NCBI GenBank assembly: GCA_003577245.1 | Contig: QEVS01000002.1 | Location: forward strand, 124,001-188,000 | DNA: 64,000 bases | From: a bacterium | Lineage (GTDB): Bacteria; Chloroflexota; Dehalococcoidia; Tepidiformales; Tepidiformaceae | Direction: 5' to 3' | Part shown: positions 6,334 through 55,875 of the stretch, piece after piece | How positions within the stretch are numbered: the stretch's first letter is position 1 | Layout: every line of letters starts with the position of its first letter | The notes under the pieces: generated by a model | Databases searched by the model: none | What the model was told of the DNA's origin: nothing | Seen by the model: only the letters and a program-made list of their open reading frames with translations | Program-made: the position numbers and the translations under genes

Positions 6334-6869
6334 GCAGCCACCCGCACAGCTTCGGCCGGTTCTGCATGCAGTGCGGCCAGAGGCTGGCTTCGGCGATCCC
6401 GGAAGGGGACACGAAGCGCCGCCTGGTGTGCATGGACTGCGGCTTCATTCACTATGTGAACCCGCGGCCGGTGGCGGCCACTATCCCGGAGCGGGCCGAC
6501 GGGCGAATCCTGCTGACGCGGCGCGCGATCGAGCCCCGCAAGGGAACCTGGGTGTTCCCGGGCGGGTACATGGATGTGGGGGAGACGGCGGAAGAGGCAG
6601 CCATCCGGGAGACGCTGGAGGAGGCTCACCTTGAGGTGCGCGACCTGTCGCTGCTGGGAGTGTACACGCGTCCCGGCCCGGGCGTGGTGGTGATCGTCTT
6701 TCGCGCTGTTGCTCTCGGGCAGGGCCGGGCTGGCCACGAAACCGCGGAGGTGGAGTGGTTCGGGCCCGACGAGATCCCGTGGGGCGAGCTGGCCTTTGAC
6801 TCGACCGAATCGGCCCTGCGCGACTTCGTGCGCGCGCGGATGAGGGGGGCGTCGGGGGAGTCTTTCTGA
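6330..6869 (+). CDS. Zinc-ribbon NUDIX hydrolase
   Basis: A 179-residue NUDIX pyrophosphatase with an N-terminal zinc ribbon (CMQC at 12-15, CMDC at 34-37). The Nudix box spans about 78-100: GGYMDVGE then RETLEE, followed by H where the consensus has G. The metal-binding REXXEE glutamates are intact. The architecture resembles NudC-like NADH or ADP-ribose pyrophosphatases, but the substrate cannot be assigned. I take the GTG at 6330, which overlaps the moaE stop, because a later ATG would cut off the first cysteine pair. Whether its presence in the molybdopterin operon is functional is unknown. Confidence 0.85.
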   Translation: MSSHPHSFGRFCMQCGQRLASAIPEGDTKRRLVCMDCGFIHYVNPRPVAATIPERADGRILLTRRAIEPRKGTWVFPGGYMDVGETAEEAAIRETLEEAHLEVRDLSLLGVYTRPGPGVVVIVFRAVALGQGRAGHETAEVEWFGPDEIPWGELAFDSTESALRDFVRARMRGASGESF

Positions 6870-6873
6870 GCGG

Positions 6874-6893
6874 GCGCGCGAGTGGCCGCGCGC
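6874..6893. terminator. GC-rich hairpin between convergent genes
   Basis: Perfect 7-bp stem GCGCGCG/CGCGCGC with a 6-nt loop between the NUDIX stop and the dnaC-like stop. There is no T-run, so it is only a possible two-way terminator. Confidence 0.35.
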
Positions 6894-6907
6894 TGACGGC
6901 TTCGGGC

Positions 6908-8308
6908 TCAGCGGCCGCGGCGGGGGGCGGGTGGCGCAGGCCTTTGCGCGAGTGAGTGCCCGAGGCGGTAGTGCGGGGCGATGATATTGACCAGGGTCCC
7001 GGTGTGGGGGTCGGCGATGCGGGCGACGATGCGCTGGTGAGCCGCGCCCAGCTCCGCCATCGACTGGTCGCTGGCGACCACCGTGGGCAGGCCGGCGACG
7101 GTGCGGTAGTTCACGATCTGGTAGAGCTTCTCCTGCGCCCAGGGTGAGCCAGCCTGGGCCCCGAGGTCGTCGAGCACGAGCAGGCCGGCGTTGCGCACGC
7201 GGTCGAACAGATCGTCGTAGCCGACCTCCGTTCCGGGAGCAAAGGAGGCGCGCAGGTGATCGATGAGGTCGGGAACGACGGCGAAGAACACACTCTGCCC
7301 CCGGCCCAGGGCACGGTTGGCGATAGCGGCAGCGAGATGGGTCTTGCCGCAGCCATTGGGGCCGAGCATGACGAGCCAGCCCTGGGGGTCGTCGGCGTAG
7401 GCGAGGGCGGAGCGAAAGGCGGCGTCGAGCGAATCGCGCTCGTCGGGGTGCAGCCCGGCGCCGCGGAGGTCGAAGTTGTGGAACTGCATCTCGGCGAGGC
7501 GTTCCCTGGTCATGCCTCCGACCTGGTGGTAGGTGGCCTGGCCGGCGCCTTCGAGGATGAACACCCGGGAAAGGCGTTCGTCGCAGAGGCGCGTGGCCTG
7601 GCGTTCTTCGAGCAGGCGCGGGCGCACCGAGCAGGTAAAGACGGTGGGCAGCTCGGCGTTGTAGCGGTGATTCACCACCTGGAAGAGCTTTTCACGGGCC
7701 CACGGCGTGCCGGAAGCGGCGTCGATGTCATCGAGCAACAGCAGGGGGGCGTTTCGCACCTGCTCGAAGAGTTGCTCGAAGCTCATCTCTTCATCGGTGG
7801 CCTCGTAGCCGGCGCGGAGGTGGTCGAGGAGGTCGGGAACGACCATGAAGAGCGCGGGGGCGCCCAGGCCGACCCGGGCGTTGGCGATGGCGGCGGCCAG
7901 GTGGGTCTTGCCGCTGCCGCTGGGGCCGGAGAAAACGAGCCAGCCGGCGGGTTCCCTCGCGAAGGCACGGGCCGCTTCGGCAGCGGCGCGAAACCAGTCG
8001 CTTTCGCCGTCGCGCCCCCCTGGGACCAGGTTTTCGAAGGTGAACCGGGTGAGGGAGCCGAGGTTGCTGATGCGCTCAAGGCGTTGACGGCGAGCGTCGT
8101 CGGCCTCGTCGAGAGCGCAGTCGCAGGGCTCGGCCTTGCCGAAGCGGGGGTGGTCGACGGGGCGTTCGCGGCGCACGAACCCGGCGCCGCCGCACAGGGA
8201 GCAGGTGGGGTGGGCGGGCTCGTCAGAAGCTTCGTTTGATGGGGTTGAGGCTTCCGCCAAGATACCTTCTCTTGCGCTCTTCGAGAGTATCTCCTTCAGC
8301 TCCTTCAT
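6908..8308 (-). CDS. DnaC-like helicase loader with two AAA+ domains
   Basis: A 466-residue protein with an N-terminal cysteine cluster (C36/C39, C62/C64) and two similar DnaC/IstB-type ATPase domains. Walker A motifs are GPSGSGKT (128-135) and GPNGCGKT (317-324); Walker B motifs are LLLLDDIDA (190-198) and LLVLDDLGA (377-385). Both domains share a VVPDL(L/I)DHLRA block, so this is an internal duplication. Ordinary DnaC/DnaI loaders have one such domain in about 250-310 residues. It is last in rplI-dnaB-dnaD-dnaC, implying loading of the DnaB helicase. The ATG at 8308 has an AGGAGG 9 nt upstream but overlaps dnaD by 86 nt; a TTG at 8260 is an alternative. Confidence 0.85.
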   Translation of the reverse strand: MKELKEILSKSAREGILAEASTPSNEASDEPAHPTCSLCGGAGFVRRERPVDHPRFGKAEPCDCALDEADDARRQRLERISNLGSLTRFTFENLVPGGRDGESDWFRAAAEAARAFAREPAGWLVFSGPSGSGKTHLAAAIANARVGLGAPALFMVVPDLLDHLRAGYEATDEEMSFEQLFEQVRNAPLLLLDDIDAASGTPWAREKLFQVVNHRYNAELPTVFTCSVRPRLLEERQATRLCDERLSRVFILEGAGQATYHQVGGMTRERLAEMQFHNFDLRGAGLHPDERDSLDAAFRSALAYADDPQGWLVMLGPNGCGKTHLAAAIANRALGRGQSVFFAVVPDLIDHLRASFAPGTEVGYDDLFDRVRNAGLLVLDDLGAQAGSPWAQEKLYQIVNYRTVAGLPTVVASDQSMAELGAAHQRIVARIADPHTGTLVNIIAPHYRLGHSLAQRPAPPAPRRGR

Positions 8309-14705: not shown

Positions 14706-15185
14706 TCAGGAGCCCGGGCGCAGCACCATGAGCACCAGGAATACGACGAAGAGAAGGTCGAGGGCGATGCCGATCGCCTTTACTATCGGTGAGCCAAGGC
14801 TGGCCTGGATCTCACTGATGGCATCGGAACCGGCGGCGCGGAGCTCGAGAGCCCGGGCGCGGTGCCTCTTCACGAAGGGCAGGAACCAGCCATGATCGAT
14901 GGCCATAGCGACCAGCCAGAGGGTGTAGGCAGCAGAGATCCACACTTCGCTGAACTCATAACCCGCCTCGGAGACGAGCCAGCTCCCGAAGACGATGGCG
15001 ATGATGGCGCCGGGGGTGGTAACGAAGAGTTCGCTGGCCCGCTGCAGGCTGAGCCAGGAGACGAGCTCGCCGGACGTGCGTGCGCGGCCGGCCATCACTG
15101 CGGCGGCCGTCGTGATGCCCGCGGCCGCGACCATGAGGAATGCGCCCAGGATGTGGGCGATGACCAGGAATTCGTAAAGAGACAA
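14706..15185 (-). CDS. DUF2269-like integral membrane protein
   Basis: A 159-residue protein with four predicted transmembrane segments (about 7-30, 55-75, 82-100, 135-157), consistent with the DUF2269 family of small membrane proteins. The start is TTG with an AGGAG 7 nt upstream. It follows the first RetSat-like gene by 33 nt on the same strand, so it may be co-transcribed with the two flavoenzymes. The function is unknown; no charged or metal-binding motif stands out inside the membrane segments. Confidence 0.75.
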   Translation of the reverse strand: MSLYEFLVIAHILGAFLMVAAAGITTAAAVMAGRARTSGELVSWLSLQRASELFVTTPGAIIAIVFGSWLVSEAGYEFSEVWISAAYTLWLVAMAIDHGWFLPFVKRHRARALELRAAGSDAISEIQASLGSPIVKAIGIALDLLFVVFLVLMVLRPGS

Positions 15186-15218
15186 GAGCGACTCCTGCGG
15201 ATTGGTGCCGTCCGGCTG

Positions 15219-16850
15219 CTAGCGGCTCGCCTCCCAGGGGTCACCCGGAGGTGGGCCGAGCTTGGCCGGGTTGCCAAAGATCGTACCGGAATGGGCCTCG
15301 CCCAGCAGGTCGCGGCCCACGATGGCGCCGGCCGTGAGGATACCACCGCGCATGACGCCCGAGATGCCGTGGCCGAAGACGGTGCTGGCCCCGGCGAGGT
15401 AGAGGCCGGGGATCTCCGTCTTTGGCGAAGGGCGATTGGGGCCGAACTGGTCGGTCGCAAGCTCGATGCCGTAGGACGTGCCGCCCGTCGAGAGGGTGTA
15501 ACGCTCGTGGGTGACGGGCGTGGCCGCCTCCTTCCAGACGATGTGCTCACGTAGCCCCGGGATGACCTTCTCAGCCTCATCGATGAGCCGCTCCGCCAGC
15601 TCGTCCTTGGTGCTCCGGTAGTCGCGGTTGCGGTGGTAACGCTCGCCCCGGGCAGGGCCTTCATCAACCGACCAGGCTGCGTAGCCGGCGGGAACGAGCG
15701 ACATGATCTCCAGGCTAGTGTACCCCTTCGGCGCGATTGTCTCGGTTTCGGGGTCCTTCACCGAGCCCACGGAGATGAAGAGGAAGTTGTCTTCGGGAAC
15801 CTGCCCGCCGGAAGCTTCCGCGTAAAGCTTCTCAAGGTCGAACGAGGTGTAGCACCAGTAGTTGGTGTTGGGCATGCGCTCGCGAAGGTCGATATCGAGT
15901 CCCAGGTAGACCACGAAGATGGGCAGCGCCATGCGGTAGGAATCGATCTTTTCGGTGGTGGCAGGCGAAAGGTGTTCGGGTCCAACCATGTCGAGCATGG
16001 TGCGCTTGAGGTCGGCGTTCGAGACAACGATTGGCGCCCGGAGAGTCTCTCCTCCCTCCAGGCACACGCCGGAGACCATCCCGTCTTCGATGGTGATCCG
16101 TTCGACGCGGGCGCGGGTGCGGAGCTCGCCGCCGTTGGCGCGGAGCGCGGCCACCAGGGCAGCGGGGATGACCTGGCCTCCGCCCTTCGGGTAGTAGGCG
16201 CCCTTCATGTAGCCCGCGATAACGCCGCCGTGGAGCACGACCGGGGTCTTCGAAGGTGGCAGCGCATAATCGCCGCATTCGGCGGCAAGCACGGCGCGCA
16301 CCCTGGTCCCCAGCGCGCATTCATCGAAGAGCTGGGAAAGCGGCCGCAGGGCCCACGCCAGGAAGTTGGGCGCCTCCTCCATCAAGCGGGGCAGGTCGGC
16401 CGGCTCGACCGGCAGCCGCACCTTGCCCGATTCGCGGATGACGGCGTGGAGGATATCGAGGAAGCGGTGGATGCCCGTTTCGTCGTCGGGGAATGTCTCC
16501 ACCAGGCGCTGCCGGTAGAGATCCCAGTTTGCGGGAACCTTGAACTCGATACCCGGGAAGTGAAGGGTGTCGAAGCCATCAGGGTCAAGGGGCAGCCATT
16601 CGACGCGGTCGTCGACGCCGAGGCCCTTGAGAATGGTGGGCAGCGTGCCGCCGGGATTGCAGTCGCCCACGTAGTGGACGCCGACATCAAACTCGAACTT
16701 CTTCATGCGGCGGAAGACGTGGGCGTTGCCGCCGGCAACGTAGTGCTGTTCGAGCACCAGGGTCTTCTTGCCGAGGGCGGCCAGGTAGGCGGCCGCGGTC
16801 AGCCCTCCCAGGCCTGACCCGATGACAATGGCATCCCAATCAGTGTTCAT
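15219..16850 (-). CDS. Phytoene desaturase/RetSat-like FAD oxidoreductase (copy 1)
   Basis: A 543-residue NAD(P)/FAD-dependent oxidoreductase of the CrtI/retinol saturase superfamily. The FAD-binding GSGLGGLTAAAYL motif lies at about 10-22, preceded by the beta strand AIVI, and a C-terminal GLYLAGAST...HGISG segment closes the flavin site. Such enzymes desaturate, saturate or isomerise polyene chains; the substrate cannot be told and no other carotenoid gene is nearby. The ATG at 16850 has a GGAGGAG ribosome-binding site. It is closely similar along its whole length to the upstream gene at 16933-18582, a tandem duplication. Confidence 0.88.
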   Translation of the reverse strand: MNTDWDAIVIGSGLGGLTAAAYLAALGKKTLVLEQHYVAGGNAHVFRRMKKFEFDVGVHYVGDCNPGGTLPTILKGLGVDDRVEWLPLDPDGFDTLHFPGIEFKVPANWDLYRQRLVETFPDDETGIHRFLDILHAVIRESGKVRLPVEPADLPRLMEEAPNFLAWALRPLSQLFDECALGTRVRAVLAAECGDYALPPSKTPVVLHGGVIAGYMKGAYYPKGGGQVIPAALVAALRANGGELRTRARVERITIEDGMVSGVCLEGGETLRAPIVVSNADLKRTMLDMVGPEHLSPATTEKIDSYRMALPIFVVYLGLDIDLRERMPNTNYWCYTSFDLEKLYAEASGGQVPEDNFLFISVGSVKDPETETIAPKGYTSLEIMSLVPAGYAAWSVDEGPARGERYHRNRDYRSTKDELAERLIDEAEKVIPGLREHIVWKEAATPVTHERYTLSTGGTSYGIELATDQFGPNRPSPKTEIPGLYLAGASTVFGHGISGVMRGGILTAGAIVGRDLLGEAHSGTIFGNPAKLGPPPGDPWEASR

Positions 16851-16882
16851 GGTGCAGCTCCTCCGTTGCGCAGACGAGCATA

Positions 16883-16900
16883 TATTCAAATTATTGAGTA
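16883..16900. promoter_or_regulatory. Candidate operator upstream of RetSat-like copy 1
   Basis: An inverted repeat TATTCAA-ATTA-TTGAGTA (one mismatch) in an AT-rich patch immediately upstream of a TATGCT -10-like box on the minus strand. The divergent PadR regulator nearby is a plausible binder, but the motif is not repeated at the padR promoter. Confidence 0.4.
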
Positions 16901-16932
16901 GTACAGCTCCCGGCGAGGGACTGTCGGGGGCG

Positions 16933-18582
16933 TTAGTCTGAGATTCTGCTCGCCTCCCAGGGGTCCCACTGCGGGCCGTGGGCAGGCAGCCGGGCAGGGT
17001 CGACGAAACGGGTTCCCGAGCGTACCTCGGCCATCAGGTCGCGCCCGGCAACCGTCGAGGCGGTGGCGATGCCGCCCTTGATAACTCCCGAGATGCCGTG
17101 CCCGGTGCCCGTGCTGGCGCCCGTGAGGTAGAGCCCATCGATCTCCGTCTTTGCGCCGGGGCGGTTGGGCCCGAGCTGATCGAGGGCAAGCTCGATGCCG
17201 TAGGAGGTACCGCCGGTAGAGGAGGTGTAGCGCTCGTGGGTGATGGGGGTCGAGGCTTCCTTCCAGACGATGTGCTCTCTGAGGTCTGGGATCACGGCGG
17301 AAACGGCATCAACGACGCGCTCGGTGAACTCATCCTTGAGGGAGCGGTAGTCGCGGTTGCGGTGGTAGCGTTCGCCGGCGACCGGCCCTTCGGCCACGTG
17401 CCAGAGGGCATGGCCGGGCGGCACAAGGGTCATTGCCTGGAGCGCAGTGCATCCTACGGGAGCGAGCGTGTGGGTGCCGGGGTCCTTCACCGAGCCGGCC
17501 GTGATGAGCAGGAGCAGCTTCTCGGGGACCTCGCCTGAGAAGGTCTGCTGGTAGATCCCTTCGATGTCGAGGGATTCGCTGAGCCAGTAGTTGGTGCGGG
17601 GCCAGCGTTCGCGCAGGTCGATATCGAGCCCCAGGTAGACGACGAAGAAGGGGAGCGCCATGCGGTAGCCGCCGATTCGTTCCGCCGTGGCAGCGGAGAC
17701 GTGCTCGCGGCCCACGAGGTCGAGCATGGTGCGCTTCAGGTCGCCGTTCGAGATGACGACCGGCGCGCGCAGCACTTCACCATCGGCCAGGCAGACGCCT
17801 GTCACGGCGCCGTCTTCGACCAGGATCTTCTGGACGCCGGTACGCAGCCGGATTTCGCCGCCGGTGGCGCGGAGCGCTTCCACCAGGTTGGCGGCGATCA
17901 CCTGTCCGCCTCCCCGGGGGTAGTGCGCGCCCTTCAGGTAGCCATCAAGGAACCCGGCTTCAAGGACGACGGCCGTGCGCGATGGCGGGGTGGCATAGGC
18001 CGGTCCCTGGGCGAGCAGCACGGCCCGGGGCCGCGCGCCGAGCTCGCAGTGGTCAAAGAGTTCGGTGACAGGGCGCATTCCCCAGCGCACGAGGGTAGGG
18101 GCAACCTCCACCACGCGGGCGAAGTCATTCGGGTTTTCGAGGGCGCGCACGGCCTGCCCTTCGCGGATGACGGCTTCGAGGATATCCAGGCACCGGTGCA
18201 AGGCCGACTCGTCGTCGGGGAAGGCCTCGACCAGGTTGCGGCGGTAGTTCTCCCAGCCGTAGGGCACCTTCACGGTGGCGCCGGGCACGACGATGGTGTC
18301 GAACCCCTCTGGGTCGAGTTCGAGGAACTCGATTCGCTCGTCGAGCCCAAGGCCGCCAAGGATACGAGGGATGGCGGCGCCGGGTCCGCATTCGGCGAGG
18401 TAGTGGACGCCGACATCGAATTCGAATTTGTGCAGGCGGCGGAAGACGCTGGCGTTCCCCCCGGCAAGGTAGTGCTTCTCGAGCACCAGGGTTCGCTGCC
18501 CGAGGGCGGACAGGTAGGCGCCGGCGGTCAGGCCTCCGAGGCCGGAGCCAATCACGATCACATCCCAATCATTCGCAGTCAC
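16933..18582 (-). CDS. Phytoene desaturase/RetSat-like FAD oxidoreductase (copy 2)
   Basis: A 549-residue paralogue of the downstream flavoenzyme with the same FAD motif (GSGLGGLTAGAYL), FRRLHKFEFDVGVHY block and C-terminal flavin-closing segment. The GTG at 18582 is chosen because the encoded protein begins five residues before the first beta strand and matches copy 1; the longer open frame overlaps padR on the other strand. It is divergently transcribed from padR, 120 bp away, so PadR is its most likely regulator. It ends 82 nt before copy 1 starts. Confidence 0.88.
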   Translation of the reverse strand: MTANDWDVIVIGSGLGGLTAGAYLSALGQRTLVLEKHYLAGGNASVFRRLHKFEFDVGVHYLAECGPGAAIPRILGGLGLDERIEFLELDPEGFDTIVVPGATVKVPYGWENYRRNLVEAFPDDESALHRCLDILEAVIREGQAVRALENPNDFARVVEVAPTLVRWGMRPVTELFDHCELGARPRAVLLAQGPAYATPPSRTAVVLEAGFLDGYLKGAHYPRGGGQVIAANLVEALRATGGEIRLRTGVQKILVEDGAVTGVCLADGEVLRAPVVISNGDLKRTMLDLVGREHVSAATAERIGGYRMALPFFVVYLGLDIDLRERWPRTNYWLSESLDIEGIYQQTFSGEVPEKLLLLITAGSVKDPGTHTLAPVGCTALQAMTLVPPGHALWHVAEGPVAGERYHRNRDYRSLKDEFTERVVDAVSAVIPDLREHIVWKEASTPITHERYTSSTGGTSYGIELALDQLGPNRPGAKTEIDGLYLTGASTGTGHGISGVIKGGIATASTVAGRDLMAEVRSGTRFVDPARLPAHGPQWDPWEASRISD

Positions 18583-44700: not shown

Positions 44701-46017
44701 CTACTTGAACCTGTACTTGATCCCGCCGAGGGTCAGGAAGCCGGCGGTGAACCGCAGCTCCGTGGGCTCGGCATCGCGGGGGATGATGAAAACGGCCTGC
44801 ACACGGTCGCCATCGTCGCCTGCGATCTTGCCGGGCGCGACTTCGCCACCGACCACGATCAGCGATGCATCGTAGGTCTCGATCTCGCCATCGGTTTCCG
44901 CTTTGAGCCGTATCTCGCCCGGCCTGACCCAGGCGCTGTCGTCGCTGAAGTTGTCGACCTGCCAGGTGAACACGATCATCCGCTCGTCCCGCTCAACGTC
45001 GAGGATGGGAACGAGGTCGTCGCCTGGGTCTGTGACCTCATCCAGCCAGACGTCGATGTTCCCGCTGAAGGTTTCGACGGTGACGCCTCCCTGGGGGACG
45101 CCCCTGGCCAGCTGGTCGTAGTCGACAGACTCCACGTGCGGCTCGTTCGCCATGGCCGCGGCCACGCCGATGAGGACCGCCAGGCCACCGGCGGCCAGCG
45201 CGCCGAGGACGCCGCTGATGACGACGGTGGAGCTGGCTGCAGGGCCCGCCGCGGCGGAGAGCACGAAAGGAGGGAAGCGGTCATGGAACGAGGCGAAGTA
45301 GCCGAGCACGCGGAAATACCAGCGGGTCACGCCGGTGACGAAACCGAACAGCCCACGCGGGTAGCGTCCCGTGAACAGGATCGCCCACCAGGAAAGGAAG
45401 ACGACCACCACGACGCCGACCATGAGGAAGCTGAGCAGGATGAAGTGGGGTATCAGGAGGACGCCCTTCCAGAAGAAGACACGCCAGCGGCTGAGCTCGC
45501 CCTGGGGCGGGTCGTCGTACTCAAGGGTGACGGGGCTGGTGCCGGTATCAAAGCTCGGGAAGCGGTCGGTTAGCAGGAGCGCATACGACCATGCGCGGGC
45601 CTCGAAGCCGAATGCTCCGCTGTTCGCAGCGAAGAGCCAGCGCGGATAGCGCCGGCGGAGGAAGACGGTGAGCCACCCGGCCGGCATCGCGGCGTACTGG
45701 AGCGTCTGCACCAGGTAGAGGAAGAACCAGACGGGGATGATGAGGAAGCCGCGGAAAAACGTGCTCAGCCGGCTGAGGCGTTCGGGATAGGCGACCTCGA
45801 AGCGCATGGGGAATGGAGCGGAGGTCAGGGTTTCGGGTGGCGACGGTGGGGGAGGAGGTGGAGGAGACGGGGCCGAGTCCGGTGCGCTCCCCTGTGCTTG
45901 GGCCGGCAGCCCGGAAGGCGCGGCCTCGTGAGGTGGCTTTTGGCGGCCCAGGGCGCCCGGGTCGAAGAACGGCTGCCTTTCGGGAGACGCGTCAGGGCCC
46001 TCACCCGGGCTGGACAT
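44701..46017 (-). CDS. DUF4389 membrane protein with Pro-rich N-terminus
   Basis: A 438-residue protein. A Pro-rich cytoplasmic region (about 1-70, including a run of prolines) leads into a DUF4389 membrane region (about 75-260) with the repeated pattern ILFTGRYPRGLFGF...RW...DRFPPF. A further transmembrane helix at about 270-290 precedes a 130-residue C-terminal beta-rich domain (DUF4352-like in appearance). The ATG at 46017 avoids a low-quality extension. The gene follows a smaller DUF4389 gene on the same strand. The family function is unknown. Confidence 0.8.
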   Translation of the reverse strand: MSSPGEGPDASPERQPFFDPGALGRQKPPHEAAPSGLPAQAQGSAPDSAPSPPPPPPPSPPETLTSAPFPMRFEVAYPERLSRLSTFFRGFLIIPVWFFLYLVQTLQYAAMPAGWLTVFLRRRYPRWLFAANSGAFGFEARAWSYALLLTDRFPSFDTGTSPVTLEYDDPPQGELSRWRVFFWKGVLLIPHFILLSFLMVGVVVVVFLSWWAILFTGRYPRGLFGFVTGVTRWYFRVLGYFASFHDRFPPFVLSAAAGPAASSTVVISGVLGALAAGGLAVLIGVAAAMANEPHVESVDYDQLARGVPQGGVTVETFSGNIDVWLDEVTDPGDDLVPILDVERDERMIVFTWQVDNFSDDSAWVRPGEIRLKAETDGEIETYDASLIVVGGEVAPGKIAGDDGDRVQAVFIIPRDAEPTELRFTAGFLTLGGIKYRFK

Positions 46018-46100
46018 GGGACACCTCCGGCGGCGGGCCGGCCCCACCGCGTGCCAGTTTGACCGGCGCCCCGCACCGGGCGGCACGGGGCGCTAATGCA

Positions 46101-46685
46101 CTAGTTCAGGCTGAAGGGCGGGTACTGGTCCACATGCATGTACATGTATGAGGTGACCCGCGTCTGCCAGCGCAGCCAGCCAACGATGAAGTTGTGCAAG
46201 CCTTCGGGAACGGACCCGGTGAAGAGGGCCACAAACCATGAGATGAGCACGCAGACTTCGGCGGCGATGGTGACGAACCAGAGGACGATGATCTGCGGAA
46301 TCACCATGAGGATTCGGAAAAAGCAGGTGAGGCGGTTCCGGCCGTCCACCTGCCCATCGACTGCCACCCGCACGGGATAGGCGGGGTCGTCTTCGAGGCT
46401 GAAAGGCGGGTAGCGGTCGGTGAGGAGCACAAGGTAGGCCCCGACCCGCGTCTGCCAGCGGAGAGCGCCGATGCTGAACTTGAGCATCCCTTCCGGGTAC
46501 CTGCCGGTGAACAGGATCACCCACCAGGCGATGAACGTCACCACGCTGGCGGCGAGCTGCACGAAATAGGAGACGATGTACTGCGGTATGGCGAAGATGA
46601 TGCGCAGGAACACCGAAAGGCGGCTCTGTGGGGCTGCCGGGTCGGCGTCGAGCACAACTGGATAGGCTCCTGCAGCGCTTGCCAT
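46101..46685 (-). CDS. DUF4389 membrane protein with internal duplication
   Basis: A 194-residue membrane protein made of two DUF4389 repeats of about 75 residues: each has two hydrophobic helices, the ILFTGRYPEG or ALFTGSVPEG turn, an xxxRWQTRVxxY helix and ends DRYPPFSL or DQYPPFSL. The repeats suggest an internal duplication, and the larger downstream protein carries two related units plus a C-terminal domain. It is probably co-expressed with that gene (84-nt gap). No function is known. Confidence 0.85.
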   Translation of the reverse strand: MASAAGAYPVVLDADPAAPQSRLSVFLRIIFAIPQYIVSYFVQLAASVVTFIAWWVILFTGRYPEGMLKFSIGALRWQTRVGAYLVLLTDRYPPFSLEDDPAYPVRVAVDGQVDGRNRLTCFFRILMVIPQIIVLWFVTIAAEVCVLISWFVALFTGSVPEGLHNFIVGWLRWQTRVTSYMYMHVDQYPPFSLN

Positions 46686-51840: not shown

Positions 51841-53421
51841 CTACTGGACGAACACCCACGAGAGCATGTCGGGGTGGTAGTCACAGGTGATCTTGAAGTC
51901 GCCCTCTTTGTCGAAGGTGATTGTCCGCTTATCGCCCTGCTTGAGGTCGCCGTTGTCCTTCGTCCCGTTAATGGTGATGGTGTGAAGCCCTACGACGCTA
52001 TCGAACGCAATGGATGTCCCCTTAGCGATGAGGACGACGCCCTTGTTGATAGCCTGCGCGGTACCGTCGGCAACGACGGTCCAGTCATTCGCGTGGGCAT
52101 CTATCTTCACTTCTTTGGATGGCGTCTCGGGCACCGCGGGCTTCTCGCCCGCAGGGGCTTTGCCCGAGATGATCGTCTCAAACATGGTGGTGCTGACGGC
52201 GTATTGCACGCAGCCGGTGCCATCGTTCTTGGTATCGGCAGGGGCTGTACCCCAGGCCTCGTTGGGGAGCTTGAGCGTCTGGCCAATCTGCACGACCGCG
52301 TCTGAGGCAAGTCCGTTGGCGTCGCCAAGGCTCCCGGCGGTCACATTGCCATACCCGGCGGCCACCTCTTCAAGGGACTGACCCTTGACTACGTACTCCT
52401 TGATCTGAGGCAGAACGAGCGTGAGGTCGGGCGGGAGCTGGTCCTCTTCGGCAAGGGCTCCGACCATGTCTTTGTTCAGGTCAACCAGTGCGGCGACTGC
52501 GATAGAGTGGCGGCCCGCGACCGAAGCGAGCGTGTCACCCGCCACGGTTGCGTAGGTTGCCCCCTCGGGCAGTGCGAGCTTCTGCCCCGGGAAGAGGCCA
52601 AAGATGGCCTGTCCGCTGCTGTCGAGGAGGGTGAACGTGCCCCGCTTGGCGTCGATCTTGAACGGCAGCTTGTTGAGCTCGGCGACGATGGCGGCGCCTA
52701 CGTGCTGCGCTTCAGCGATCTTCCGGACGGTGTCGTTCTCGGTGTAGATGGTGACGATGCGCCCCTCGGGGAACTGGGGCGTGGGCGGGATCTTCGCCCG
52801 CGAACCCTTCACCACGGGGGCGTCGAAGAGCGCGGGGTCGTCGGTGGGGAGGCCGTTGTAGGCAGCAAGCTCTTTCGGCCCGATGTTGTGGGCTCGCGCA
52901 ATGGCCGCCAGTGTATCGCCGCTGACGATGGCCGAGAGGTCCTGGTTGAGGACGTGAGCGAACTCCACGGCCTCGAGCCAGCCTGTATTGGTGGGATTGC
53001 CATTCTCATCGACCAGCGTTGTATCGATGGGTGCGGTGAGGAAATCGACGATGTGTTCGATCTGCCGTTCGTTGAGCGCGCCGCCACTGGTGTTGAGCCA
53101 GGCTGGCATGAGGGTGCCTGCACGGCCGCAGGAAACGGTTCGTTCGAGAAGGTGCCGGTTGGCCTTGAGCTTGAGGGGGTCCTGGTCCTTGAAGGCAGCG
53201 GTATTGAGCGGGAGGCCAACCCCGCCTTCGCCGCTGTTGCCATGGCAGCTGCGGCAGTTATTGGCGAAGAGGAGGGCGCCACGCTCGATGGATTCTTCGA
53301 GGTGGTACTCCTCGCGGATGGGCGAGCGGTAAGGAAGGTCGACGACGGCGTAGGCGGCGCAGCTCCCTACGAAGAGGAAGAAGAGGACGACGACCAGGAA
53401 GATCTGTTTCTGAGTATTCAC
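51841..53421 (-). CDS. Cytochrome c - LysM - cupredoxin fusion protein
   Basis: A 526-residue exported protein, last gene of the bc-complex operon, starting at GTG. A signal anchor (about 7-27) leads to a class I cytochrome c domain with haem motif CRSCH (56-60) and likely axial Met105 (TLMPAW). Four LysM-like repeats follow (about 163-191, 223-250, 290-318, 341-370), then a Pro-rich linker and a C-terminal cupredoxin domain with type 1 copper ligands H480, C513, H516 and M519 (CDYHPDM). It could carry electrons from the Rieske/cytochrome b complex through haem to copper while the LysM domains tether it to peptidoglycan. I know of no standard family with this order. Confidence 0.88.
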   Translation of the reverse strand: MNTQKQIFLVVVLFFLFVGSCAAYAVVDLPYRSPIREEYHLEESIERGALLFANNCRSCHGNSGEGGVGLPLNTAAFKDQDPLKLKANRHLLERTVSCGRAGTLMPAWLNTSGGALNERQIEHIVDFLTAPIDTTLVDENGNPTNTGWLEAVEFAHVLNQDLSAIVSGDTLAAIARAHNIGPKELAAYNGLPTDDPALFDAPVVKGSRAKIPPTPQFPEGRIVTIYTENDTVRKIAEAQHVGAAIVAELNKLPFKIDAKRGTFTLLDSSGQAIFGLFPGQKLALPEGATYATVAGDTLASVAGRHSIAVAALVDLNKDMVGALAEEDQLPPDLTLVLPQIKEYVVKGQSLEEVAAGYGNVTAGSLGDANGLASDAVVQIGQTLKLPNEAWGTAPADTKNDGTGCVQYAVSTTMFETIISGKAPAGEKPAVPETPSKEVKIDAHANDWTVVADGTAQAINKGVVLIAKGTSIAFDSVVGLHTITINGTKDNGDLKQGDKRTITFDKEGDFKITCDYHPDMLSWVFVQ

Positions 53422-53433
53422 CCGTTCCTCCGC

Positions 53434-54057
53434 CTAGCCGTTGTATGCGACCGTGCGCAGCGGGTTGTCGGCCGCTCCGCCGGTGATCTTGCCTGTATCG
53501 ACGTTGAGAGACCCATCGGGGTTGATGGTGAGGGCCATGGTGTCCATGGGACGCGGCGCCGGCCCGTAGACGCGGATGCCGGCGCGGGAGTAGGTGGAAC
53601 CGTGGCAGGGGCAGCGGAACCAGCCTTTGATTCCCGGGAAGTTCACGGCGGCGCCATCGAAGTTGGGCGACCACGGGACCGTGCAACCAAGGTGGGGGCA
53701 CTTCCAGTAGAGGGCGAGCAGGCCGCCGGTGCCGCCCACGCCAAGCACATCACCTTCGGCGCCCTGCAGGTTGGCAAGCCAGAACTTGCCTTCGGAGATG
53801 CGCGCGGGGTCATCGCCGGCCGTTGGGATGCGGGCCTTCGTGACATTCACCACCCCGCCGAAACCGGTCGGGCGGCGCAGATTGAAGAAGGCGAGCGTTC
53901 CGGCAGCCATGGCGCCGATCGAGAGGGTGAGGCCGGCGAAAACGCTCACGCGCATGAAGGAGCGGCGTGCGAGGCGGCGGGCTTCCTGCTGGCGCACGTA
54001 CTCGATTTTTCCTGCCGGGGTCTTGCCGGGCGTTGCTGTCTGTTCGATCTGCGTCAT
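53434..54057 (-). CDS. Rieske [2Fe-2S] iron-sulfur protein
   Basis: A 207-residue Rieske protein. The cytoplasmic N-terminus ends in RRLARRSFMR before one transmembrane helix (about 38-58), a typical Tat-like signal anchor. The cluster ligands lie in CPHLGC and CPCHGST. It accepts electrons from quinol at the Qo site of the cytochrome b subunits and passes them to the haem c domain of the next gene product (12-nt gap). Normal length. Confidence 0.95.
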   Translation of the reverse strand: MTQIEQTATPGKTPAGKIEYVRQQEARRLARRSFMRVSVFAGLTLSIGAMAAGTLAFFNLRRPTGFGGVVNVTKARIPTAGDDPARISEGKFWLANLQGAEGDVLGVGGTGGLLALYWKCPHLGCTVPWSPNFDGAAVNFPGIKGWFRCPCHGSTYSRAGIRVYGPAPRPMDTMALTINPDGSLNVDTGKITGGAADNPLRTVAYNG

Positions 54058-54070
54058 GTTCGATGTGTTC

Positions 54071-54934
54071 CTAATGTTGACCGGGTATGCCTTCGCTGAC
54101 CTTCAGCTGCCACGGGAAGACGAGCTCCTGACCCTGTCCGCGGAAGGCTGTGCCCACGACTGTGAGGACGAGGTAGGCGCCGACAAAGCCGCTGAAGAGG
54201 ACGACAACAGCGTCGCGGCGGGTGAAGATCATTCCCGCCCGCCAGAGGGCGAAGATGAGGAGCGAGGGGAAGGCGACCATCACGCCGGTTGGGATGCCCT
54301 GTTCCACAAGCCAGCCGGGGAAGTCCAGGTTCTGGAAATCCTCGCCGATGATGACGATGTTCCAGGGCGAGTAGGTGATTTCGCGTGACCATTCGGGCCA
54401 GGGCAGCTGGGTCTGGATAGAGCGGACGTTTTCGAGGAAGCGGAAGGTATCGCCCCCCGAGAAGCCGAACCAGTCGTTGAGGAAGAAGGCGAGCTTGCCC
54501 GAGTCCCAGAGGATGAGGAACCAGGTGCCGACGATGCCAACGAGGCCGCCGATGATGGAGAGCTTGATGGAGTTTTCGGTGCCGAACCAGATTCCCTGGC
54601 CGTCATTATCCCGGTCGAAGTAGGGGAAAGCTCCCATGATCACGAGCCAGATGCTGGGGACGATGACGCCGGCAAGGGCGGCGTTCATGTGCAGCAGAAG
54701 TTCCTGGAGATTGAGCAGGTACCAGGGCGCCTTCGACGGGTTGGGCGTGACATCGGCGTTTGCCTGGTCGAGCAGCGGCGCGTTCATCAGGAAGGAAAGC
54801 AGGAAGAGCGCGAGGGTGAAGACCATGGCCGCGATGAATTCGATGAAGACGAGGTCGGGCCAGACGAGGACCTCTTCGTCGCGCGCGCGGGGCTGGGGCT
54901 TTGCGGCCGGCCGGGCTACTGCAGCAGTCGCCAT
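54071..54934 (-). CDS. Cytochrome b C-terminal domain protein (subunit IV-like)
   Basis: A 287-residue membrane protein with about four transmembrane helices, corresponding to the C-terminal half of cytochrome b or subunit IV. Where bc1/b6f proteins have PEWY, this one has KAPWY (NPSKAPWYLLNLQELLLHM), so the Qo-site glutamate is missing from its usual position. A long loop with acidic residues (FDRDNDGQG) follows. It is encoded 47 nt after the N-terminal half and before the Rieske gene. Confidence 0.88.
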   Translation of the reverse strand: MATAAVARPAAKPQPRARDEEVLVWPDLVFIEFIAAMVFTLALFLLSFLMNAPLLDQANADVTPNPSKAPWYLLNLQELLLHMNAALAGVIVPSIWLVIMGAFPYFDRDNDGQGIWFGTENSIKLSIIGGLVGIVGTWFLILWDSGKLAFFLNDWFGFSGGDTFRFLENVRSIQTQLPWPEWSREITYSPWNIVIIGEDFQNLDFPGWLVEQGIPTGVMVAFPSLLIFALWRAGMIFTRRDAVVVLFSGFVGAYLVLTVVGTAFRGQGQELVFPWQLKVSEGIPGQH

Positions 54935-54985: not shown

Positions 54986-55738
54986 CTAGAGGGGCCGGGC
55001 GAGGCCGCCATCCCGGCGAATGCGCCAGAAGTGGACAGCCATGAAGATCGCGGCCAGCAGGGGCAGGCCGATGACGTGAAGGGTGTAGAAGCGGATGAGG
55101 GCGTTGGGGCCCACTTCAAACCCGCCGAGGAGCCAGAAGCGGGACTTGGGGCCAAGCACCGGGGCGGCGCCGGCGATGTTGGTGCCGACGGTGATGGCCC
55201 AGAAGGCCAGCTGGTCCCATGGGAGCAGATAGCCGGTGAAGCTGAGGAGGAATGTAAGGACGAGGAGGATGACCCCGATTACCCAGTTGAACTCACGCGG
55301 AGGCTTGTAGGCGCCCGTATAGAAGACACGCATCATGTGCATGAAAACGAGGATGACCATGGCGTGGGCCATCCAGCGGTGCATGTTCCTCATGAGCTGG
55401 CCGAACTGGACGGTGGTCTCGATGTTCTGCATATCGAGGTAGGCGCGTTCAACGCTCGGCACGTAGTAGAACATCAGGAGGATGCCCGTGACGGTGAGGC
55501 CAAGGAACATGAAGAACGAGAGCCCGCCGAGGCAGTAGGTGTGGGTCACCTTGACGTGGGTGCGGTGGAGCCTCGTTGGGTGCAGGTGAAGGAACACGTT
55601 CGTCGCGACAATCAGCATCTGGTTGCGCGGGGTGTTCGGGTAGCCAGTGCGGAAGATGGACTTCCACACGTAGTTGTGGAACATCTTGTCGTAGAGCTTG
55701 TCCGACAGGCTCGGCTTTGCAGGCGTCTCGACAGCCAA
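54986..55738 (-). CDS. Cytochrome b N-terminal (b6-type) subunit
   Basis: A 250-residue cytochrome b/b6 domain with four transmembrane helices and haem-b histidines in [17 protein letters not shown] and [26 protein letters not shown]. Split from its C-terminal half, as in b6f-type complexes. The TTG at 55738 is chosen because AGGAGG lies 6 nt upstream (55745-55750); the GTG at 55768 would overlap the preceding small gene. It passes electrons from quinol to the haems and back to the quinone pool. Confidence 0.95.
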
Positions 55739-55755
55739 TCCCTTCCTCCTCGGCC

Positions 55756-55875
55756 CTATTTCTGCCACCAGCGGCCCAGGGCCACCATAATGCCCAGCGA
55801 GGCGACCATCGTGATGAACACGAAGACCAGCTCGAGCGTTTCTGCGAAGTCATGCGGCAGGTTAGAGAATTCCAA
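55756..55875 (-). CDS. 39-residue single-helix membrane protein of the bc operon
   Basis: A short gene: TTG start with AGGAGG about 9 nt upstream and a stop before the cytochrome b gene. The product ([15 protein letters not shown]..., ending GRWWQK) has one transmembrane helix at about 13-33. It is first in the operon, right after the promoter. It resembles in size and position the small subunits of b6f-type or cytochrome oxidase complexes, so it is likely a structural accessory of the complex; homology is not established. Confidence 0.7.

Follow-up and report, generated by a model that had tools for sequence, protein, structure and literature searches.

A predicted carrier subunit of a bc complex that joins cytochrome c, LysM and cupredoxin domains in one membrane-anchored chain

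What might a single protein with a haem c domain, four LysM repeats and a type 1 copper domain be doing at the end of an operon for a cytochrome bc complex? The gene in question (51841..53421, minus strand; 526 aa, GTG start) lies in a window of 64,000 nucleotides, by which we mean the whole stretch of DNA that was analysed, and the coordinates given below for its domains and operon partners are on the same strand. A preliminary description had placed all three kinds of domain in one chain, and Pfam, structure modelling and ligand conservation bear this out. In particular, the cytochrome c and LysM domains score above their Pfam cut-offs, and the cupredoxin domain, which falls below its own, is evident from its predicted structure. 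The closest named protein records come from the MAG H3_CFX4 (labelled Thermoflexaceae; 87% identical) and from bacterium HRbin29 (51%). The family to which the window belongs is probably Tepidiformaceae, in the order Tepidiformales of the Chloroflexota. (An Rfam search of the 64-kb window gave no matches.)

The GTG start is supported by the N-terminus that it yields, MNTxKQI, which is common to homologues in other families. Residues 1-28 (53338..53421) comprise MNTQKQI and a transmembrane helix; the MNTxKQ start is conserved, and the full-length AlphaFold model has a helix at residues ~3-27. (Note that the mean pLDDT of this full-length model is 52, that its domain arrangement is not usable, and that better pLDDT values are confined to the LysM and copper parts.) Given this helix, and given that no conserved cleavage site was seen after it, we take the protein to be anchored in the membrane; the preliminary description was right that there is such a protein, and its exported state is what we revise. 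A lipoprotein anchor was also considered. Cys21 fits a lax lipobox, yet it is missing from most relatives in the taxonomic class (hereafter, the class), and for this reason an uncleaved transmembrane anchor is preferred.

The haem domain (residues 40-130; 53032..53304) is over the cut-off for both Cytochrome_CBB3 (PF13442, 32.5 bits) and Cytochrom_C (PF00034, 31.3 bits). It contains the haem c attachment motif CRSCH (C56-R-S-C59-H60; 53242..53256) and, in the stretch MPAW, the likely axial ligand M105 (53107..53109); a CxxCH motif and an axial Met within a cytochrome c profile are what mark a class I cytochrome c. Over an alignment of 29 distinct members of the window's own family (f1), on which ligand conservation was scored, C56, C59 and H60 are present in 29/29 and M105 in 28/29, and mean pairwise identity is 69% for the cytochrome c domain, 53% for the cupredoxin domain and 41-49% for the LysM repeats. 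The window protein has a single CxxCH; some other members of the class have two. A further pair of cysteines outside the haem motif, C98 (53128..53130) and C404 (52210..52212, at the CGQ position of the class), is found in all 29 members, including five in which a regular expression did not catch the pair and the alignment settled the matter. Across the class both cysteines are present or, in six deep-branching relatives with at least two haems, both are absent. The simplest reading is that C98 and C404 would form a disulfide that closes the segment inserted between them.

The copper domain (residues 437-526; 51844..52113) gave a cupredoxin Pfam match of 15.2 bits, below the cut-off. An AlphaFold model of residues 428-526 is all-beta, with a pLDDT of 95.1 and a pTM of 0.85, and its top Foldseek matches are the purple cupredoxin 5fc9, a CuA/amicyanin chimera and amicyanin (best E 3e-6), with CuA domains also among the matches and plastocyanin lower in the list. 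The putative ligands are H480 (51982..51984) and those of the loop C513-x2-H516-x2-M519 (51865..51885), whose spacing is amicyanin-like; H480, C513 and H516 are present in 29/29 family members and M519 in 28/29, the one exception being Gln. (The f1 member L029 619-2541 has Gln in place of the axial copper Met, in CDFHPEQ, as in stellacyanin-type sites.) By model and by sequence, then, the C-terminal domain is a cupredoxin fold with the full His-Cys-His-(Met) set of type 1 ligands, and the predicted site would be expected to hold copper. Purple cupredoxin, amicyanin and plastocyanin share this fold and ligand pattern, amicyanin also the C-x2-H-x2-M spacing, but they are separate proteins that are not fused to a bc subunit.

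The gene is the last of an operon, on one strand and with gaps of 12-51 bp, that runs from a cytochrome b6-like subunit (54986..55768; PF00033, 163.9 bits, the sole such match in the genome) through subunit IV, the C-terminal part of cytochrome b (54071..54934; assigned by synteny and by a PF00032 score of 20.1 bits against a cut-off of 20.7), to a Rieske [2Fe-2S] protein (53434..54057; PF00355 over the cut-off). It thus shares a b6-type bc operon with the genes for cytochrome b, subunit IV and the Rieske protein. The order cytochrome b-subunit IV-Rieske-carrier subunit is kept throughout the class, so that the place in a bc operon noted earlier for this gene holds both here and beyond it. Moreover, cytochrome b gave a single match per genome in 7/7 genomes, within the bc operon where location was compared. 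From this gene order we predict that the fusion protein is a physical part of the bc complex. (Two further observations on gene neighbourhoods can be recorded here. At the locus L046, an 888-aa open reading frame with eight CxxCH motifs, 14909-17575, is separated from a bc operon by about 6-8 kb, and in the window the adjacent membrane-protein genes at 44701-46086 and 46101-46685 have common RYP and FTGRYP-type repeats and look related.)

A precedent exists for a bc subunit of this kind. QcrC (dihaem cytochrome cc) is a tethered subunit of the actinobacterial bcc complex; in cells that lack a free cytochrome c, it hands electrons straight on to the oxidase (PMC8361435). The fusion protein resembles it as a membrane-tethered bc subunit predicted to act as carrier to the oxidase. 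The two differ in that QcrC has two haems and neither copper nor LysM, whereas the fusion protein has one haem together with the copper domain. Because it has one haem, and because the NCBIfam QcrC profile scores it at 20.6 bits against a cut-off of 200 (a weak similarity that covers the haem domain only), we do not count it as a QcrC. In caa3 oxidases, too, complexes III and IV are connected by a tethered haem carrier, the fused cytochrome c. Membrane-anchored cytochrome cy is another such carrier (PMC8361435). Neither of these, however, is a subunit from a bc operon that also bears a copper domain, and neither has LysM repeats. That QcrC-like tethered carriers are known (PMC8361435) lends some weight to the idea that the protein is an ordinary tethered cytochrome c subunit of that type, with decorations that have no special role; but the fusion or fragments of it were found in 36/38 genomes of f1, the architecture being thus conserved in the family, and the metal ligands vary little or not at all, which makes this idea quite improbable.

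The LysM profile matches the fusion protein in four stretches with 84.9 bits against a cut-off of 20.9 (E 3.6e-24), and on this basis we assign these parts to LysM. LysM 1 (residues ~161-213; 52783..52941) is matched by Pfam LysM and by our family HMM (4.7e-14), LysM 3 (~288-338; 52408..52560) by the family HMM at 3.1e-13, with a pLDDT of 71-86 over most of its length, and LysM 4 (~341-387; 52261..52401) at 2.1e-16. LysM 2 (~220-286; 52564..52764) is degenerate, with an insertion of ~30 residues, and the family HMM matches only residues 230-253 of it (5.6e-7); its matches to the other three repeats lie at about 164-212, 290-338 and 343-386. By the same HMM, every full-length f1 protein has LysM repeats, mostly 4-6 of them, with extremes of 3 and 7, and LysM repeats were found in 0/60 class loci outside f1. 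As f1 forms one clade (support 100) in a tree of the Rieske protein and first haem domain, the distribution fits an array that was acquired once, which would make it a later, f1-specific insertion into the subunit. LysM arrays are also found in bacterial wall proteins such as the cell wall-binding endopeptidase 4uz2 and LytE (8i2e); these are wall hydrolases, whereas the array of the fusion protein sits between two redox domains.

Is there a wall for the array to bind? Penicillin-binding-type transpeptidases are encoded in the f1 genomes that were searched, and cultured Tepidiforma is monoderm, with a peptidoglycan layer of ~20 nm in a periplasm of 40 nm and an S-layer (PMC10284905). The proposal that the host is a peptidoglycan-containing monoderm is thus supported. 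The f1 genomes also encode further LysM proteins with stronger scores. Peptidoglycan binding by the array is plausible; chitin and related glycans are also possible ligands of LysM modules. What does not hold is the suggestion that the array keeps the carrier near the membrane, since the N-terminal anchor does so; the array would instead add wall contact or reach.

Because LysM modules can have other glycan ligands, and because a different repeat occupies the same position in related families, the inserted segment may serve only as an arm. In such a case the array would be a spacer, stiff or flexible, by which the copper head gets as far as the oxidase; peptidoglycan binding would have been lost, and the haem-to-copper relay would be unchanged. 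Within the class, the paired cysteines can be as few as 65 or as many as 511 residues apart, and in f17, f34, f59, f66, f68 and others an unrelated beta-type repeat, ERGxxGTxxxxHxxGT, is found where f1 has LysM. Moreover, no other domains of the fusion protein are as poorly conserved as the LysM repeats, and LysM 2 is degenerate. Against this, LysM 1 has kept its G-D motif in 28-29/29 f1 members, 5-6 repeats are present in most of f1, and f1 has peptidoglycan to bind. We consider a pure spacer unlikely, if still the strongest of the alternatives discussed here, and favour an arm that would bind peptidoglycan. (Examples of the other repeat are at L067 3030-5303, protein residues ~200-605, and also at L069, L072 and L105; in the members scanned it had no Pfam match that would give it a name.)

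Comparison across the class bears on the role of the copper domain. Outside f1 the anchor and the first haem domain are retained, as is, mostly, the cysteine pair, and haem-copper fusions without LysM are widespread. After the second cysteine, the 87 proteins in the tree end with one or more amicyanin-like copper domains (57), a second haem c (16), a sulfocyanin/auracyanin-like copper domain with the pattern CNxxxHYxxxM (10) or nothing further (4). On the tree of the Rieske protein and first haem domain, a quick tree with SH-aLRT support in which some f2 branches are weak, the second carrier changed at least nine times, and haem and copper endings both occur within the one family f2. (At L045 2214-3149 and L047 2209-3369, from two genera of one family, the same bc subunit ends in a second haem c and in a sulfocyanin-like copper domain, respectively.) Since the C-terminal domain is interchangeable with a haem domain in the same subunit elsewhere, it is most simply an electron carrier.

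Cupredoxin-like domains can also have roles in copper handling, and free cupredoxins encoded in the genome could carry electrons; the copper domain might accordingly be a store or chaperone for CuA assembly, with the haem domain alone reducing the oxidase. However, the type 1 ligand set H-C-H-M is complete, haem c domains exchange with the copper domain at the same position, and two different types of cupredoxin occupy that position, and we find a role in CuA assembly improbable. An electron-carrying copper domain remains the reading that we prefer.

Does the fusion protein make other carriers superfluous, as had been supposed? For cytochrome c this is supported. The fusion protein is the sole PF00034 match in G013 (one contig, 96% complete), G015, G007 and other genomes, and again the sole PF13442 match in G013 and G015, searches that would miss divergent or multihaem cytochromes. 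In G001, a genome of the same genus, the second cytochrome c match is a CopC-CopD-YtkA-cytochrome c fusion (L112 705-2969). For plastocyanin-like shuttles the supposition fails, given the free cupredoxin lipoproteins at L002 and L003; we thus gave up the idea that the fusion protein is the only carrier, copper included, and kept it for cytochrome c. (The window's genome also encodes a Sec-dependent nitrous oxide reductase at L111 4489-6522 (TIGR04246, 794 bits), which a cupredoxin lipoprotein, 6649-7299, adjoins.)

If the subunit hands electrons to an oxidase, its second carrier might be mirrored in oxidase subunit II. CoxB loci were taken from the same genomes as the carrier subunits and classed by script. 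Where the second carrier is a haem or is missing, CoxB is haem-fused in 13/15 genomes; the corresponding counts are 2/26 for an amicyanin-like copper carrier and 5/9 for the other copper type; five genomes of f2 break the pattern, combining a copper carrier with a haem-fused CoxB. Because the association is clustered by family and has these exceptions, the independent support that it gives is small: it corroborates delivery to the oxidase and does not prove it. In the window's genus the sole CoxB found is plain, with neither a haem nor a copper extension. Across the genomes compared, a haem-less CoxB often has a gene for a cupredoxin no more than about 5 kb away, in many cases on the opposite strand. 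Delivery of electrons to an oxidase by the fusion subunit is thus supported only indirectly. (In f1, at L107 4550-5743, L108 7805-8896 and L110 3447-4787, a membrane protein with a C-terminal cupredoxin comes right after CoxC and ends the aa3 operon; it apparently stands in for the cytochrome c of caa3-type oxidases. In other families of the class, at L144 4679-5743, L150 1417-2646 and L152 4687-5970, a type 1 copper domain is fused to the CuA subunit CoxB.)

A module of the wall-binding type between two redox centres, in cells with a periplasm as wide as 40 nm (PMC10284905), also brings to mind a relay that points outwards, in which an acceptor outside the cell would receive electrons that the LysM and copper parts take into the wall or beyond it. 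But the relatives without LysM retain the same carriers, and the type of oxidase tracks the type of carrier, so that we regard such a relay as very improbable, the least probable of the alternatives.

Our best reading, which we hold to be somewhat more probable than its negation, is that the fusion protein is the terminal carrier subunit of a b6-type bc complex, with a relay from haem to copper to oxidase and a LysM arm that binds peptidoglycan. The N-terminal helix would keep the subunit in the membrane, and the haem c would accept electrons from the Rieske head and pass them to the type 1 copper centre at the C-terminus, carried on an outreaching arm. From there they would go to the CuA centre of a haem-copper oxidase, with other cupredoxins, whether free or tethered to the oxidase, as possible intermediates; nitrous oxide reductase is perhaps a further destination. 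Lying in a loop that a disulfide between C98 and C404 probably closes, the LysM array would bind peptidoglycan and in this way position the complex or its copper head relative to the wall. The plain CoxB of the window's genus, and the free cupredoxins that could act as shuttles instead, count against this reading. On this reading the protein is best described as a carrier subunit tethered in the manner of QcrC but rebuilt to include copper and an arm that binds the wall. That the carrier subunit itself anchors the bc complex to peptidoglycan and contains the exit relay from haem c to type 1 copper, and that complex III and oxidase subunit II switch carrier metal more or less in step, is a more demanding proposition, to which we give a little less than even credence.

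We found no published description of a cytochrome c-LysM-cupredoxin bc subunit in the open-licence literature, a body of work that leaves most subscription journals out of scope. Copper and haem carriers are usually regarded as separate soluble proteins that replace one another. Here such replacement has taken place inside one subunit of complex III, and repeatedly within one class, and oxidase subunit II tends to match; for these reasons one can follow, gene by gene, how iron has been exchanged for copper where complexes III and IV meet. Judging from the open-licence literature searched, no link of complex III with the cell wall has been proposed before; a respiratory complex that bears LysM repeats would be the first. 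Both the carrier exchange and the wall link are testable in cultured strains of Tepidiforma. Taken together, these findings suggest that electrons would leave the complex not by a free cytochrome c but by a built-in haem-to-copper relay fastened to the wall.
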